In this document: piece after piece, positions 11,021-20,790 of the stretch
Position numbering within the stretch: the first letter of the stretch is position 1
Layout of the letters: the number at the start of each line of letters is the position of its first letter
Source: Thermococcus cleftensis
Lineage (GTDB): Archaea > Methanobacteriota_B > Thermococci > Thermococcales > Thermococcaceae
Reading direction: 5' to 3'
Assembly (NCBI RefSeq): GCF_000265525.1
Contig: NC_018015.1
Span: forward strand, 1,338,322 to 1,402,321
DNA length: 64,000 nt
The notes under the pieces: generated by a model
What the model saw: the letters and a program-made list of their open reading frames with translations, nothing else
The model's database searches: none
What the model was told of the DNA's origin: nothing
Made by a program: the position numbers and the translations under genes

Positions 11021-11947
11021 ATGGACCGGTGGAAGATCGTCAGGGCCTTCACCCTCGGGCCCCTGCTCGAGGCTGTCGTTCCCAAACCCGGCAACGTGAA
11101 CCGCTTTGAGGATTTCGAGGATCTGACCCTCTACCACTTCCTCTTCGCCGACACGGCCGTCGCGGGAATCTACTATGAGGCCGTCAAGAGGGCCGAGCTG
11201 ATGAAACGGGGAACGCTCGGACTTAACGAGGCTGGCATAGGCGAGCTGATAAAGCGCGCCGTTCAGGTCTCCCGCGAGGCCCAGGACGCCAACCCAAACT
11301 TCGGGGTAATCGTTCTCTCCGTTCCGCTCGTCATGGGCCTTGCCCTCGGGAGGAACATGCTCGACGCCAGGGAGAAGGCCAGGCTCCTCATCGACGAATC
11401 AACGGTTCGGGACACGATGGAGCTTTACAGGGCGATAAGGATAGCGAACCCCAAGGGAATCCCCAGCGGTGTGAAGTACGACGTTTACAGCGATGAGTCC
11501 TTCAGGGAACTCTTCAGGGACGGAATCAACCTCTCCCGGCTCGCGGAGATGAGCTGTGGGCGGGAGCTTGTGTTCTGCGAGTGGCTGAACGGCTACGAAC
11601 TCAGCTATGCCACCTTTGAATGGCTGTATGAGCTGGTAAAAAAGCTCCCCTTGGAGGAGGCGGTCGTGAGGGCCTTCATCGAACTTTTGGCCGGGAACAT
11701 CGACACGCTGATAGTCAGGAAGGCCGGCATCGAAGAGGCGAGGCTCGTTCAGGAGAACGCCGGGAAAGTCCTTGAGGGAAAGATGGGCATCGAAGAGTTC
11801 GATGCGTTCATGCGGGAGAAGGGAGACCTGAGGAACCCCGGCAGTTTGGCCGATATAATGGCCGTCTCGCTCAGCCTTCTCGTCCTGAGGGGGCTGAGGG
11901 TGGAAATGAGAAACGGGAAGGTCTGGGGAGTTATAGGACGACCCTAA
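11021..11947 (+). CDS. CitG/MdcB-like protein (triphosphoribosyl-dephospho-CoA synthase family), archaeal type
   Basis: A 308-residue helical protein. VPKPGNVNRFEDFED near residue 21 matches the TPKPGLVD motif of CitG/MdcB enzymes, which make the prosthetic-group precursor of citrate lyase or malonate decarboxylase. The downstream motif is DANPNFGVIVLSVPL instead of the bacterial G.NTH.G type, so the archaeal subgroup may act on another substrate. No citrate lyase or malonate decarboxylase gene is seen here. ATG 11021 follows GGTGGTGTGA and abuts the previous stop. The 3' end overlaps the convergent encapsulin-like gene by 17 bp. Function in archaea is open. Confidence 0.75.
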   Translation: MDRWKIVRAFTLGPLLEAVVPKPGNVNRFEDFEDLTLYHFLFADTAVAGIYYEAVKRAELMKRGTLGLNEAGIGELIKRAVQVSREAQDANPNFGVIVLSVPLVMGLALGRNMLDAREKARLLIDESTVRDTMELYRAIRIANPKGIPSGVKYDVYSDESFRELFRDGINLSRLAEMSCGRELVFCEWLNGYELSYATFEWLYELVKKLPLEEAVVRAFIELLAGNIDTLIVRKAGIEEARLVQENAGKVLEGKMGIEEFDAFMREKGDLRNPGSLADIMAVSLSLLVLRGLRVEMRNGKVWGVIGRP

Positions 11948-12212
11948 ACCTCTTCGCCCCGCCGGGACCGAGGCCGAGTGCCTTGCTGTCGATGACAACT
12001 GCATCCCCTCCGAGCTCGTCGAGCATGCGTATCTTAAGGCCCGAGAGCTCGAAAACCTCCTCCTCGTCGCCGAACTCCTCGTTTATCTGCTCCCTTATGA
12101 ACTCGTAGGCTTCCCTTCCCAGGAGGACAACGTCCGGCTCGTAGCCGTCGAGCTTCAGCTCGTTGGCCTTCTCCTCAACTGAGCTGAGAACACGAATCAG
12201 GTCTCCGCGCAT
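11931..12212 (-). CDS. Family 4 encapsulin-like protein (HK97 A-domain, DUF1884)
   Basis: A 93-residue protein closely resembling the Pyrococcus furiosus DUF1884 protein of known structure: RGDLIRVL at the N-terminus, then ELKLDGYEPDVVLLGREAY, and LDELGGDAVVIDSKALGLGPG near the C-terminus. As I recall, this family is proposed to be a truncated HK97 capsid fold (A-domain only) and is called family 4 encapsulin, found in hyperthermophilic archaea. ATG 12212 follows CGGTG; a GTG nine bases upstream (12221) would bury that site. It lies 54 bases downstream of, and on the same strand as, the 289-residue membrane-anchored protein, and convergent with the CitG-like gene. Cargo is not evident. Assembly into shells is inferred. 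Confidence 0.75.
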   Translation of the reverse strand: MRGDLIRVLSSVEEKANELKLDGYEPDVVLLGREAYEFIREQINEEFGDEEEVFELSGLKIRMLDELGGDAVVIDSKALGLGPGGAKRFRVVL

Positions 12213-12266
12213 TTTCAACACCGTGAAAAGTTGAACCTCCGGCTAAAAAATGTGCCGGTGGGAGCA

Positions 12267-13136
12267 TCACCCTTCTCCGATGCTTCCCGCCGTGAAGGCC
12301 TCTGCGTAAGCCTTGACCGTCTCCTCGTCGCCCATTATCATGAGGACTCTCACCAGATCCATGCCCTTGACCTCAGAGAATTCGACGTAGAGGTAATCGC
12401 CGCCTCTGCGGTAGAGTTTTGCACTCAACGGCCTGAAGTACTCGTTCTCGGTGGGTTTTTTATCCAGGATTCTCTCCTCAAATCCCTCCGCCTTTATGGC
12501 CTCGTCGAGCTGGGCGATTACCGCTTCAATGGGGCAGGTGCAGGCCCCGGTGAGCTCTGTCCTCCTTCTCTCCGAGATGCCGCCGCTCATCAGGAAGTCC
12601 GTCCCGTTCGAGTTCGCAAGGTTTTCCGTTACCTCCCAGGTGGTGTTCTTCGTGGGTATCACGTAGTGGGCGAAGTAAACGTTCCCCGCGGGCAGTTCGA
12701 TGTCCTGCCTTTTTATCTCTCCCCTGTTTCCGGCAACTACCGGGTAGTACATTCCCCTCGCGATGTCGTTGTTCTCGAAGAAGACGGCACTGCCAGCCAG
12801 CGTGCACTCAGGCAGTATTCCCATCTCCGCCGGCCAGTTCTCCGCGTGCAGGTAACCGCTGCTCGTTCCTTCACTCAGCGATACCTTTGGAACGAACTCC
12901 AGAAAATCGCTGAACTCCATCATGCGGTTGTCCACAAGTTCCCTGACGCTCCAGCCGGTCCAGGCGTTTGCGTGGGTGAATCCGGGCTCGGTCTCAAGCG
13001 TGCAGGTTACGGTGGAATAGTCCACCCCGTCGCTGGAGTCCTTGCTTGGTAGCTGGTTCCCTGATATGTAGTAACCCAGCGTGAGAACCACAACAACGGA
13101 AATAATCAGGACAGCAACCTTCACATTCTTATCCAT
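12267..13136 (-). CDS. Membrane-anchored protein of unknown function, paralogue family member 1
   Basis: 289 residues with an N-terminal hydrophobic segment (VAVLIISVVVVLTLGYYI) acting as anchor or signal, then an extracytoplasmic domain with five to six Cys. The C-terminal ~45 residues (YLYVEFSEVKGMDLVRVLMIMGDEE and AYAEAFTAG) are almost identical in two further genes at 18644-19567 and 19631-20590. A mid-region LPAGNVYFAHYVIPTKNTTWE also matches the others. I do not recognise the family. ATG 13136 follows GGGGAG. The promoter element at 13172-13226 recurs upstream of the second locus. Probably a lineage-specific expansion. Confidence 0.8.
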   Translation of the reverse strand: MDKNVKVAVLIISVVVVLTLGYYISGNQLPSKDSSDGVDYSTVTCTLETEPGFTHANAWTGWSVRELVDNRMMEFSDFLEFVPKVSLSEGTSSGYLHAENWPAEMGILPECTLAGSAVFFENNDIARGMYYPVVAGNRGEIKRQDIELPAGNVYFAHYVIPTKNTTWEVTENLANSNGTDFLMSGGISERRRTELTGACTCPIEAVIAQLDEAIKAEGFEERILDKKPTENEYFRPLSAKLYRRGGDYLYVEFSEVKGMDLVRVLMIMGDEETVKAYAEAFTAGSIGEG

Positions 13137-13261: not shown

Positions 13262-13903
13262 CTAAAGCCCGAACGCCCCCTTGATGCCGTTGATTATCAT
13301 CTGAACCGCCATAGACGTTAGTATGAGACCCATCATTCTCGTCATAACCTTTATTCCTACCCTGCCAAGCTTCCTCTGTATCCTGTTGGAGGAGCAGAGG
13401 ATCAGCCAGACGGTCAGGCCTATCGCGAGAATGCTCGCTATCACCGTCGCCTTCTCCGGAACGGAAGTGCTCTTTGCCATGTAGAGCATGACCGTGGTTA
13501 TCGCACCGGGTCCCGAGATTAGGGGTATCGCCAGGGGTATTATGGCAACCTCCTCCAGCGTGACCACTTCCTCGCTGAACTCCTCAGTCTCCTCTTTGCT
13601 TATCTTGACCGTCGAGAGCCTGCCAGAGAGCATGTCCATAGCCATCTTGAAGAGGAGTATTCCACCCGCTATCGCGAAGGCATCTATGCTGGATCCGAAG
13701 AACTTGAATATCCACTCCCCTATGAGGGCGAAGATGACGAGGGTTGCAACGACCGTTAGAGCCGTTTTGGTCGCTATCTCCCTCCTCTGGCTCCAGGAGA
13801 GGTCGTGAGTGACGCTCAGGAAGACCGGAACGGCTCCGACAGGGTTGGTTATCGCGAAGAGGCCTCCGTAGAGTATGACGAAGTACTTCAGGTACTCGAG
13901 CAA
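13262..13903 (-). CDS. snatA: MarC/SnatA-family membrane transporter
   Basis: 213-residue polytopic membrane protein of the MarC (UPF0056) family; the Thermococcus member SnatA (about 216 residues) transports small neutral amino acids such as glycine and alanine with protons. Six hydrophobic segments are visible. The family motifs are FAITNPVGAVPVFLSVT near the N-terminus and PLAIPLISGPGAIT in the middle. TTG 13903 was chosen because GGTGGT lies just upstream and the resulting length fits; a longer frame from 13972 would overlap the OsmC gene. It forms an operon with the OsmC-family gene upstream. Confidence 0.85.
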   Translation of the reverse strand: MLEYLKYFVILYGGLFAITNPVGAVPVFLSVTHDLSWSQRREIATKTALTVVATLVIFALIGEWIFKFFGSSIDAFAIAGGILLFKMAMDMLSGRLSTVKISKEETEEFSEEVVTLEEVAIIPLAIPLISGPGAITTVMLYMAKSTSVPEKATVIASILAIGLTVWLILCSSNRIQRKLGRVGIKVMTRMMGLILTSMAVQMIINGIKGAFGL

Positions 13904-13949
13904 GCTACCACCCTTCCGGGCCGGAGAAGAGGGGGTTAAAAAGTTAATC

Positions 13950-14360
13950 CTATCCTCCGCGGATAATCTCAAAGGAGTACGTAAGCTCGGCCCCGCTGAG
14001 CTTCATATGGGCAGAGGCGGAGCAGTACTTGTCCTGGCTCAGCTCTATCGCCCTCTTGGCCTTCTCCTCCCTCACGTTTCCGTGGATTCTGTAGTGGAGG
14101 TGGACTTTCCTGTATATCTTCGGGTGCTCCTCCTTCCTCTCGCCCGAAATCTCGACCTCCAGACCTTCAATCGGCTCGCGCATCTTCTGGAGTATCATGA
14201 CCACGTCGTAGGCCGTACAGCCCGCGACGCTCAGGAGGAGGAGCTTCATGGGGCTTATTCCTCCCTCCCCGAGAATGACGGAGCACTTGTCGCTCTCTAT
14301 CCTGCCGATGAACTGGTAATCCTTGAACCATTCAACCTTTCCCTTAACCGGTTCACTCAC
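13950..14360 (-). CDS. OsmC-family protein
   Basis: 136-residue OsmC/Ohr-like protein, a family of thiol peroxidases acting on organic hydroperoxides. The two redox Cys are present in SVAGCTAYDV and DKYCSAS, and the conserved Glu lies in GLEVEISGE. The GTG at 14360 follows AAGGTGGTG; an upstream frame reaches 14480 but crosses the promoter of the divergent radical SAM gene, so I use the shorter form. Downstream is snatA, 46 bp away on the same strand. A role in oxidative stress defence is the family inference. Confidence 0.88.
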   Translation of the reverse strand: MSEPVKGKVEWFKDYQFIGRIESDKCSVILGEGGISPMKLLLLSVAGCTAYDVVMILQKMREPIEGLEVEISGERKEEHPKIYRKVHLHYRIHGNVREEKAKRAIELSQDKYCSASAHMKLSGAELTYSFEIIRGG

Positions 14361-14418
14361 TGCCACCACCTTTTCAACCTCGGGCAAGGGATTTAAAGGG
14401 TTTCTGAAACCTCCGATT

Positions 14419-15261
14419 ATGTACATACGGCCCTTCGATCCCTGGAAGGCGAAGCTCTGCACGTGCCCCTTCAAGTACACCCTTAACGTCTACACCGGCT
14501 GCGACCACGCGTGCGTCTACTGCTACATAACCTCCTACATTCCCAACGCCTTCCGCGTGAGGACCAAGGAGGGCCTGCTCCCCAGGCTCGAGCGGGAGCT
14601 CAGGAAGTTCGATAAACGCTACATCATAGCACTCTCCTACTCATCGGACCCCTATCCAACCATTGAGCGCGAACTGGGTATAACGCGGAAGGTTCTGGAG
14701 CTGTTCAAACGCCATAATGTCCGCTGTCTGCTCCTCACGAAGTCAGATATCTTCGAGCGCGACCTGGATCTCCTGAGTGAACTTCGCTGCGCCGTCGGGA
14801 TAACAGTCACGACCGTTGATGAGAGAAAGGCCAAGCTCCTCGAACCTAACGCGCCCTCCCCTAAGGCCAGGATAAGGGTCCTCAAGAAGGCCAAGAAAGC
14901 GGGGATTCCGGTTTACGCAAGGATAGACCCGATAATCCCATTCTACACCTGGGAAGACTTCGATAAAACTCTAGATGCTCTGAGCTTCGTGAGCCACATC
15001 ACCGTTTCGACGCTCAAGCTCAGGCCCGACTCCAAGAAGAGAATGTTCGCTAAGTTTCCAGAGCTAATGGAAAAGCTCTGGCCCCTCTACGAGAGGGGTG
15101 AAAAAATCGGCGGCTATCACTACCTCCCCAGGGAGCTCCGCCTTGAAATCCTCAGCGATGCCGAGGAAAAGATGGCCTCTAGGGGGATCACGTTTGGCTC
15201 GTGTCGTGAAGGCTATCGCTCGTTTCCGAGCTGCGATGGCTCTCACCTTGTTCCTCTCTAA
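14419..15261 (+). CDS. Radical SAM protein (SPL/photolyase-like, COG1533)
   Basis: 280 residues with the radical SAM cluster motif CDHACVYC (Cx3Cx2C) near residue 31, which binds a [4Fe-4S] cluster and S-adenosylmethionine. The flanking KYTLNVYTGCDHACVYCY and the ALSYSSDPYPTIE segment are typical of the spore photoproduct lyase-like COG1533 group, whose archaeal members have no proven substrate. A TATA-like tttaaa at 14391-14396 sits about 25 bases before the ATG at 14419, so the mRNA is probably leaderless. The 3' end overlaps the convergent amidotransferase gene by 74 bp. Confidence 0.85.
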   Translation: MYIRPFDPWKAKLCTCPFKYTLNVYTGCDHACVYCYITSYIPNAFRVRTKEGLLPRLERELRKFDKRYIIALSYSSDPYPTIERELGITRKVLELFKRHNVRCLLLTKSDIFERDLDLLSELRCAVGITVTTVDERKAKLLEPNAPSPKARIRVLKKAKKAGIPVYARIDPIIPFYTWEDFDKTLDALSFVSHITVSTLKLRPDSKKRMFAKFPELMEKLWPLYERGEKIGGYHYLPRELRLEILSDAEEKMASRGITFGSCREGYRSFPSCDGSHLVPL

Positions 15262-18643: not shown

Positions 18644-19567
18644 TTAGCCTTCGACGTTTCCCGCGCTGAAGGCTTCCGCGTAGGCCTTCACGACTCCCTC
18701 GTCCTCGCCGAGTACCATGAGGACCCTGACCAGGTCCAGACCCTTCACCCGGGCGAACTCCACATAGAGGTACTCGTCGCCCCTGCGGTAGAGCTTGATG
18801 CTGAGCGGCTTGAAGCAGTCGTTTTCCCTGGGTACGGTCCAGAGTTCGGTCTCTTCGAAGCCCTGGGCTTTAATGGAAGCCTCAAACCTCTCGATCAGCG
18901 TTTCTATCGGGCAGATGCAGGTGGCTTCAAGCTCCACCGGGGTCTCGAAGAAGATGTGGTAGTCCCTGAAGTCCGTCCAGGTTCTGGTCGGCGTCAGGAC
19001 GGTGAGTTTCCAGGTTGCGTTGGCCGTTGGAATGTACTGAACCGCGAAGTAGGCCTTTCCCGGCGGCAGTTCCAGCCACCGCCCGTTCCCTTCTCCCCAG
19101 CAGTCCCTCGCGTGTTTTGTAGGGGTTTCGTTCCTTAAAACCGCCTGGTAGAAGGATTGCCCGCTCTCCCTGCCCACAAGGGCCATTGTAAAGCCGCCCA
19201 TGGAGCACGGCACAGTCAGGTTGAACTTCTCCGGCCAGTGGATTAAGTAGGCGTTCCAGCCCTCCGGCGGGGAGGTGAGGTTCATGTTGGGGTAAACGAC
19301 GAACCAGTCGTCCAGTGTAAGCTCGGAGCCGTTGGTCACTTCGGTGATTCTTTTGTCTATCCACCCGCCGATTAGGGCGTTTTCTGGCTGCTTTGAATGG
19401 ATAGTAAGCCTGCATTCCTGGCCGCATTCCTGGGGGCCTAACGTCTGGTTGTTGTATATGGGTGTTCCCTTTTCCCTGAAGTAGAGAATACTCAGCGTAG
19501 CGACCACTACCAGGGCTATCAGCAGAAAGATGAAAAAATGGAGCTTGGGTTTCTTGGAGCCTTTCAT
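18644..19567 (-). CDS. Membrane-anchored protein of unknown function, paralogue family member 2
   Basis: 307 residues; N-terminal basic stretch then a hydrophobic anchor (FFIFLLIALVVVATLSILYF). The extracytoplasmic part has several Cys. The C-terminus (YLYVEFARVKGLDLVRVLMVLG and AYAEAFSAGNVEG) and the LPPGKAYFAVQYIPTANATWK segment align with the family members at 12267 and 19631. ATG 19567 lies after GGAGGGTG; GTG 19579 is within the site. It is 63 bases downstream of member 3, probably in one transcript. Function unknown. Confidence 0.8.
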   Translation of the reverse strand: MKGSKKPKLHFFIFLLIALVVVATLSILYFREKGTPIYNNQTLGPQECGQECRLTIHSKQPENALIGGWIDKRITEVTNGSELTLDDWFVVYPNMNLTSPPEGWNAYLIHWPEKFNLTVPCSMGGFTMALVGRESGQSFYQAVLRNETPTKHARDCWGEGNGRWLELPPGKAYFAVQYIPTANATWKLTVLTPTRTWTDFRDYHIFFETPVELEATCICPIETLIERFEASIKAQGFEETELWTVPRENDCFKPLSIKLYRRGDEYLYVEFARVKGLDLVRVLMVLGEDEGVVKAYAEAFSAGNVEG

Positions 19568-19630
19568 AGTGGCCTTCACCCTCCGTAGATGGGTTGACTA
19601 TGGTCAATATCTGTTGGTTACGTCTCAAGC

Positions 19631-20590
19631 TTAATTTTGGGAGACCAGCGTTCCAGCACTGAACGCCTGTGCATAGGCTTTCACGACTTTCTCATCGCCC
19701 ATTATCATGAGAACTCTAACCAAATCCATGCCCTTGACTTTGGCGAATTCCACGTAGAGGTATTCGTCGCCTTTGCGATATATGTATATCTCTATTTGTG
19801 AAAATATTTCGTTGGGGGTACTCTTTTCACTAGATACCATCGTGCTAAAACCCGCCTCGGCTATTCCGTCCAAAACCTTTTTGACAATTGTGTGGCTGTT
19901 GCAGTAACAGGGGCTCGTAAAGTTCTTCACCCACAGTTCTGGATGGCCACAGACACTTAGATAGTCGATTACTCCACTGCAATAAACATGATCCCATTTG
20001 TCCCAACTAGTATTAGCCAGTGGAATGGCATATGTTGCCATATGCACCCTTCCGGGTGGCAGTTCTGATTCATAGTTTACGGTTTTTAGAAATATGCATC
20101 TCTCGTTTGTAAGGTCGATCTGGGAAGAGGTTGATACGCATAGGCCCAAATCGTGAAAACCCTTACTTGTAGAGTTGTTGTCCAGGGTAGCTTCTCCTCC
20201 CTGGATGTAACATGGAACGGTTATCCCAATTTCATGAGTCCAGTTTTGAAGGTACATCTTTCCTGCTGTTATGGATTTATTTAGGTCTGTCTTTGGAATT
20301 ATTATTATGTTTTCATTAAATCTTACAGCTGAATTATTGGGAAGTCTCTCTGATACAATAATGTTCCCAAAAGAGTTTAATCCTGGGATAGTGTTCACAT
20401 TATTTTTGCATTGATTTTCCATCAGATAGTGCTTCTCACTCTGATGGCCTTGACTTTGGGAAACATTAACCTGGCCTGACAGACTACCATGACTGGAGAC
20501 GTTATCGTTACTCGCTTCGTGATCTGCGTAAGTAATAGTCAGAATGAAAATAACAAAAAGCACTGAAATAATATAAAGGGTCTTATTCAT
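19631..20590 (-). CDS. Membrane-anchored protein of unknown function, paralogue family member 3
   Basis: 319 residues starting with a hydrophobic segment (MNKTLYIISVLFVIFILTI), then a polar, Ser/Asn/His-rich linker and a Cys-containing domain. The C-terminus (YLYVEFAKVKGMDLVRVLMIMGDEK, AYAQAFSAGT) and LPPGRVHMATYAIPLANTSWD align with members 1 and 2. It is clearly more A+T-rich than its neighbours. ATG 20590 follows GGAGGAGGTG and overlaps, as ATGA, the stop of a decayed reading frame. Member 2 follows downstream. Function unknown. Confidence 0.78.
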   Translation of the reverse strand: MNKTLYIISVLFVIFILTITYADHEASNDNVSSHGSLSGQVNVSQSQGHQSEKHYLMENQCKNNVNTIPGLNSFGNIIVSERLPNNSAVRFNENIIIIPKTDLNKSITAGKMYLQNWTHEIGITVPCYIQGGEATLDNNSTSKGFHDLGLCVSTSSQIDLTNERCIFLKTVNYESELPPGRVHMATYAIPLANTSWDKWDHVYCSGVIDYLSVCGHPELWVKNFTSPCYCNSHTIVKKVLDGIAEAGFSTMVSSEKSTPNEIFSQIEIYIYRKGDEYLYVEFAKVKGMDLVRVLMIMGDEKVVKAYAQAFSAGTLVSQN

Positions 20591-20790
20591 TTTCGGGGCA
20601 CCTCCTCCAGTGAAGTTGGGCATATTCCTGATGGACGGGAATTTGGTTTGACAGTAACTATTGTTGCTCCCGGTAGGCTGTCAACGATCACCCAGTCGGA
20701 AGTTGGTCTGCCATTAAGCCACGGTGCCCGTGTAGTATGGACGTAAATATGACGGGTGCCATCACTGTACTCACGGTCCTGTAAGTAATA
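20587..20790 (-). pseudogene. Remnant reading frame upstream of family member 3
   Basis: A 67-codon open stretch ends in TGA at 20587, overlapping the ATG of the next gene as ATGA. It reads like real protein (for example GRPTSDWVIVDSLPGAT and IVTVKPNSRPSG) but has no start codon and is preceded by a TAG. Another frame just upstream (about 20780-20865) reads AYFVIPFPTGSADYGPE, so a frameshift seems to split one former gene. It lies between the family promoter and member 3. The original protein is unknown. Confidence 0.4.

Follow-up and report, generated by a model that had tools for sequence, protein, structure and literature searches.

Family 4 is the least understood of the encapsulin families, and functional hypotheses about it came from the genes that lie next to its members. 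A gene of family 4A is present in the stretch of Thermococcus cleftensis DNA analysed here (64,000 nucleotides, referred to as the window), and it raises the question of what its product associates with, and whether its gene neighbours can tell us. Andreas and Giessen (2021; PMC8346489) defined families 4A, 4B and 4C, reported that both 4A and 4B occur throughout Pyrococcus and Thermococcus, and named four operon types for family 4, those of 4A being with a [NiFe] sulfhydrogenase or with OsmC, the latter often accompanied by MarC. Such an enzyme-operon arrangement is usual for 4A and not strictly defining; the authors also list orphans (PMC8346489). The features of the window that bear on the question are as follows.

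11021..11947, + strand: CitG-like (PF01874) gene, convergent with 4A and overlapping its 3' end by 17 bp (Pfam match; syntenic neighbour)
11931..12212, − strand: family 4A A-domain (HK97 A-domain) protein, 93 aa (PF08967, NF041190 and 2pk8 matches; AlphaFold model; structural matches)
12219..12222, − strand: GGTG ribosome-binding site of 4A, 10 nt before the ATG
12244..12250, − strand: TATA-like box TTTTTTA, predicted own promoter of 4A, at −38 to −32 of the start codon, position conserved across loci
12251-12256, − strand: BRE-like stretch directly upstream of the TATA-like box
12267..13136, − strand: membrane-anchored protein of a variable, multi-copy Thermococcales family, between MarC and 4A (paralogues, alignment, model)
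13262..13972, − strand: MarC/NAAT-family membrane protein (PF01914, TIGR00427; homologous region starts near 13897)
13950..14480, − strand: OsmC-like protein (listed ORF; conserved part about 14360-13953; PF02566, E 1e-16)

The 4A reading frame runs from an ATG at 12212 to 11931 on the minus strand, stop codon included, and encodes 93 residues. A GTG at 12221 provides an alternative start that would give a product of 96 residues, and the ATG was favoured because the GGTG ribosome site lies 10 nt before it; this motif is present in nearly all 4A loci outside the Pyrococcus-like genus, and is missing from L038 and L074. The protein matched the Pfam family PF08967 (E 4e-32; 110.5 bits, cut-off 31.4), the NCBIfam model NF041190 (encap_f4a, "family 4A encapsulin nanocompartment shell protein"; 164.1 bits, cut-off 90) and, in a sequence search, P. 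furiosus PF0899, PDB 2pk8 (E 2e-30; 55% identity), and with scores this strong the identification is not due to chance. A phmmer match to KtrA (E 0.48) was discarded as chance. Comparison with orthologues gave a median dN/dS of about 0.07, which shows purifying selection on the gene.

The structure predicted by AlphaFold from a 46-sequence alignment (pLDDT 90.9, pTM 0.81) returned 2pk8 as the top Foldseek match (E 3e-11, TM 0.96). Among the VIA-align matches listed, rows 2-50 were all HK97-fold proteins, nearly all of them named as phage capsids or encapsulins, with 81-92 residues aligned at Z scores of 7.4-9.4, where a Z below 8 may mean a mere common arrangement and where about 38 rows reached at least 8, with no unrelated fold among them; row 2 was 3bjq, titled phage-related protein. 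The aligned regions correspond to residues of about 250-383 of HK97 gp5 and 146-267 of the T. maritima encapsulin. The HK97 A-domain fold is thus confirmed at the level of the predicted model. With both model cut-offs passed and this fold present, the protein belongs to family 4A, and it resembles PF0899 (2PK8) in sequence family, length and fold. The sequence-only reading had recognised a family 4 A-domain protein closely similar to the P. furiosus DUF1884 protein, and it was right on both counts; the fold search that it proposed as a check placed the protein inside the HK97 A-domains. The family itself is not new; it was described by Andreas and Giessen (2021; PMC8346489).

An encapsulin in the strict sense has all of the HK97 fold, including the N-terminal region, the E-loop and the P-domain, assembles by itself into a closed shell and has a dedicated cargo that bears a targeting signal; the 93 residues found here comprise the A-domain alone. 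Family 1 encapsulins (PF04454) share the A-domain fold with 4A, but they are full-length shell proteins that have all HK97 domains and load cargo; none was found in the T. cleftensis genome. When sequence profiles of 4A and of Thermococcales family 1 encapsulins were compared, no link was detected (probability 4.5% and 0.3%), so the fold is the sole basis for their kinship. HK97 shells use the N-arm, E-loop and P-domain spine for closure, and these parts make the two- and three-fold contacts. Because 4A lacks them, a conventional closed shell is unlikely, and the protein is probably a soluble dimer or small ring. In the predicted structure, helix 1 spans residues 3-21 and carries the charged residues E13, E14, K15 and E18, which are invariant in the 46-sequence alignment; some of them would point away from the hydrophobic side of the helix, and it is a reasonable guess that they form a protein-contact face.

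Next to 4A, the sequence-only reading had described a same-strand membrane-anchored protein and a convergent CitG-like gene overlapping by 17 bp, and both descriptions were confirmed: the protein encoded at 12267-13136 is anchored at its N-terminus and matches no Pfam or NCBIfam model, and the overlap is real in the window and is exactly 17 bp in 37 of the 52 loci that have CitG in range. Its view that no cargo was evident needs qualification, and its choice of these two neighbours as the only nearby candidates did not hold, since further upstream on the same strand lie MarC (two genes from 4A) and OsmC (three genes), which together constitute the published OsmC-type candidate; the OsmC-like protein matched NF008009 under the model cut-off. 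Orthologues of 4A occur across Thermococcales, and the window thus has the OsmC and MarC genes for which the OsmC type was named, but it differs from the published type in that a gene for a variable membrane protein splits OsmC/MarC from 4A, and in that a promoter-like element lies just before 4A. Both differences make a two-component 4A operon doubtful.

The intervening membrane protein was rejected as an obvious cargo, since its gene is one of several copies of a variable family and sits at what looks like an insertion hot spot. Members of the family are encoded at 12267-13136, 18647-19579 and 19634-20623 of the window, all on the minus strand, and at G000:C1:649839-651389; these proteins vary in the middle, whereas roughly the final 45 residues are strongly conserved. 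A PDB fold search with its predicted structure (pLDDT 86) gave no significant match (best E 0.007, TM below 0.25 over the model), which is not proof of a new fold.

We surveyed 60 further Thermococcales 4A loci from six genera, 52 of them outside the Pyrococcus-like genus and 8 within. Near the 52 genes of the first group, CitG was kept in every case, PspC in 43, a 78-aa membrane protein in 41, MarC in 40, and OsmC and a radical-SAM gene in 39 each, so that OsmC is linked to 4A only as often as the radical-SAM gene, a presumably unrelated member of the block. At 8 loci MarC was present without OsmC nearby, and at 13 neither gene was. The distance between MarC and 4A was 47-62 bp in 19 loci and exceeded 250 bp, reaching about 2.5 kb, in 14, where the gap was filled with copies of the membrane-protein family or with CRISPR-like arrays, and the junction looks like an insertion hot spot. 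The arrays were seen in L066 and L076, where they were recognised by the repeated peptides that appear in the ORF lists. In genera g4-g6, OsmC itself lies 46-78 bp upstream of 4A. Within the Pyrococcus-like genus, CitG and 4A are unlinked, and the hydrogenase is directly upstream of 4A in 6 of the 8 loci. L081 encodes a 4A protein nearly the same as PF0899, and here 4A is separated from the hydrogenase by three antisense ORFs, one of them an ABC-transporter ATPase by Pfam. At L084 (genome G012), 4A adjoins a divergent radical-SAM-like gene upstream, and its surroundings include genes that, judged by eye, resemble those for dihydropteroate synthase and beta-RFAP synthase.

When the 4A loci were aligned at their start codons, a sharp A/T block was evident at about −38 to −32, or at −30 to −24 where the locus came from the Pyrococcus-like genus; the GGTG was usually at −10. 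A match of at least 6 of 7 positions to a TATA-like pattern was scored at seven fixed offsets, with positions further upstream as controls. By this measure, 55 of the 60 4A loci contained a match, compared with 382 of 8100 control positions (4.7%), and the Fisher p of 2e-65 overstates independence because the loci are related; at aligned 4B starts, the corresponding count was 2 of 41. The block remained constant whether a hydrogenase, OsmC, MarC, a CRISPR array, a divergent gene or a large unrelated ORF was upstream. A TATA at about −38 together with the GGTG site is consistent with the spacing of TATA boxes, the short leaders and the ribosome sites (GGDGRD) measured in T. onnurineus (PMC5316973). 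We infer that a promoter in the short spacer before the start codon most likely drives transcription of 4A, independently of the upstream gene. Such a promoter may also be compatible with read-through from OsmC and MarC, and the distance to OsmC in g4-g6, which is the spacing expected of an operon, counts against independent transcription.

Among 74 high-quality Thermococcales genomes, PF08967 was found in all 74, each having a match of 4A length that was taken as the 4A copy, and CitG was likewise found in all 74. OsmC was detected in 72, 4A being kept throughout; in searches of the tblastn type it was not found in the near-complete G011 or in the draft G065, assemblies that may miss a region. 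A homologue of the sulfhydrogenase (hydrogenase α) was detected in 70 and not found in the other 4, which include the single-contig G018. Therefore, neither published partner of 4A is always present. Rate co-variation was evaluated as partial correlation of pairwise distances in the 27 loci that hold six genes of the block. The distances of 4A did not co-vary with those of OsmC (−0.06), co-varied modestly with those of MarC, radical-SAM and PspC (0.18-0.26), and gave the highest value with CitG (0.51), while the adjacent and presumably unrelated pair CitG-PspC gave 0.42. OsmC distances barely followed those of the other block genes, because two forms of its N-terminus exist: in genus g1, residues 1-45 are either 56-67% or 80-96% identical to the window protein, with residues 46-136 fairly uniform. 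The N-terminal form does not track 4A. These two forms (window 13953-14360, minus strand) occur across Thermococcus and suggest local gene exchange.

On these grounds, we infer that 4A does not form a dedicated two-gene operon with OsmC or with the hydrogenase. On balance we lean towards a free-standing 4A gene that has its own promoter and no dedicated operon of either type, and whose product, a dimer or small ring, docks on enzymes, the partner probably being encoded elsewhere. One or more housekeeping enzymes could be the docking targets of the helix 1 face that has E13, E14, K15 and E18, and 4A could stabilise or tether them in this way, by analogy with its paralogue 4B, for which binding to GAPDH has been reported in P. 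furiosus (PMC8346489). The partner would probably not be readable from gene order: 4A appears to have its own promoter, OsmC is linked to it as the radical-SAM gene is, and OsmC and the sulfhydrogenase are each missing from some genomes, so gene order does not identify the partner. A broader version, in which 4A is an autonomously expressed, capsid-derived and general enzyme-binding dimer or ring, that is, a domesticated capsid domain with a non-compartment role, is put forward only tentatively, as the less probable claim.

The proposal of Andreas and Giessen (2021; PMC8346489) would instead make OsmC, MarC and 4A one transcription unit, with the A-domain protein coating or enclosing OsmC. We consider this unlikely: the three genes do share a strand in the window, and OsmC is directly upstream at 46-78 bp in g4-g6, but 4A is preceded by its own TATA-like box, insertions of up to about 2.5 kb, CRISPR arrays included, separate it from MarC, OsmC is linked to it no better than an unrelated gene is, the rates of the two do not co-vary and the two OsmC N-terminal alleles are independent of 4A, and G011 keeps 4A where OsmC was not found. 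The CitG-like enzyme, which the sequence-only reading had suggested as a partner, is universal in the 74 genomes, in range of 4A at all 52 loci outside the Pyrococcus-like genus, where it is the most constant neighbour, and highest in rate correlation. Nevertheless, two convergent genes that overlap do not readily come apart, and the overlap alone would hold the pair together; co-inheritance of linked genes gives the same signal, as the CitG-PspC value illustrates, and in the Pyrococcus-like genus the genes are apart. With its linkage explained by the overlap, CitG was rejected as an obvious cargo, and we regard it as a highly improbable partner.

It is also conceivable that 4A encloses a cargo, encoded at some other site in the genome, in a closed mini-shell whose contacts differ from those of complete HK97 proteins. 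The A-domain builds the five-fold rings of HK97 shells, and the authors of the family have proposed pentameric facets (PMC8346489), but 4A consists of that domain without the parts that make the two- and three-fold contacts, and its only crystal structure, 2PK8, is a dimer, which Andreas and Giessen suspect to be a tag artefact (PMC8346489). We judge such a shell to be quite unlikely, and the preferred reading remains the free-standing dimer or small ring. What is new here is that the assignment of 4A cargo from neighbours looks weak, and this is directly testable. Provided that 4A is expressed from a promoter of its own and that the genes upstream change from locus to locus, these genes are poor evidence of cargo, and a search for the partner should not presuppose OsmC or the hydrogenase. 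Encapsulin, DUF1884 and OsmC all go unmentioned in the main text of a 2025 interactome study of T. kodakarensis.

The T. cleftensis genome contains one further copy besides 4A, a member of family 4B (L002; NF041191), which is found downstream of deoC or GAPDH; the two belong to the same fold family, and their profiles align with 98.9% probability. The start of 4B overlaps the end of deoC in T. cleftensis, and an overlap of a few bases is seen at most of the Thermococcus loci examined, which suggests translational coupling, whereas 4A shows no such coupling to an enzyme gene. In the Pyrococcus-like genus, 4B follows GAPDH by some tens of bases. Among the PF08967 copies, 4A is apparently the more constant. 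Five high-quality genomes (G073, G076, G078, G087 and G093) have a single PF08967 match, of 4A length, and are apparently without 4B.

A capsid domain that lacks the rest of the capsid fold and is kept in 74 of 74 high-quality Thermococcales genomes bears on the cellular takeover of virus proteins. Among the listed genomes of the phylum, those outside Thermococcales had no PF08967 match, and no relatives of 4A were found in viral contigs. Weak structural matches in BFVD were to short, uncharacterised phage and haloarchaeal-virus proteins (A0A127AW84, 128 aa; A0A068EMQ5, 82 aa; A0A410N6Q3, 76 aa), which may be stand-alone A-domain-like proteins in viruses.
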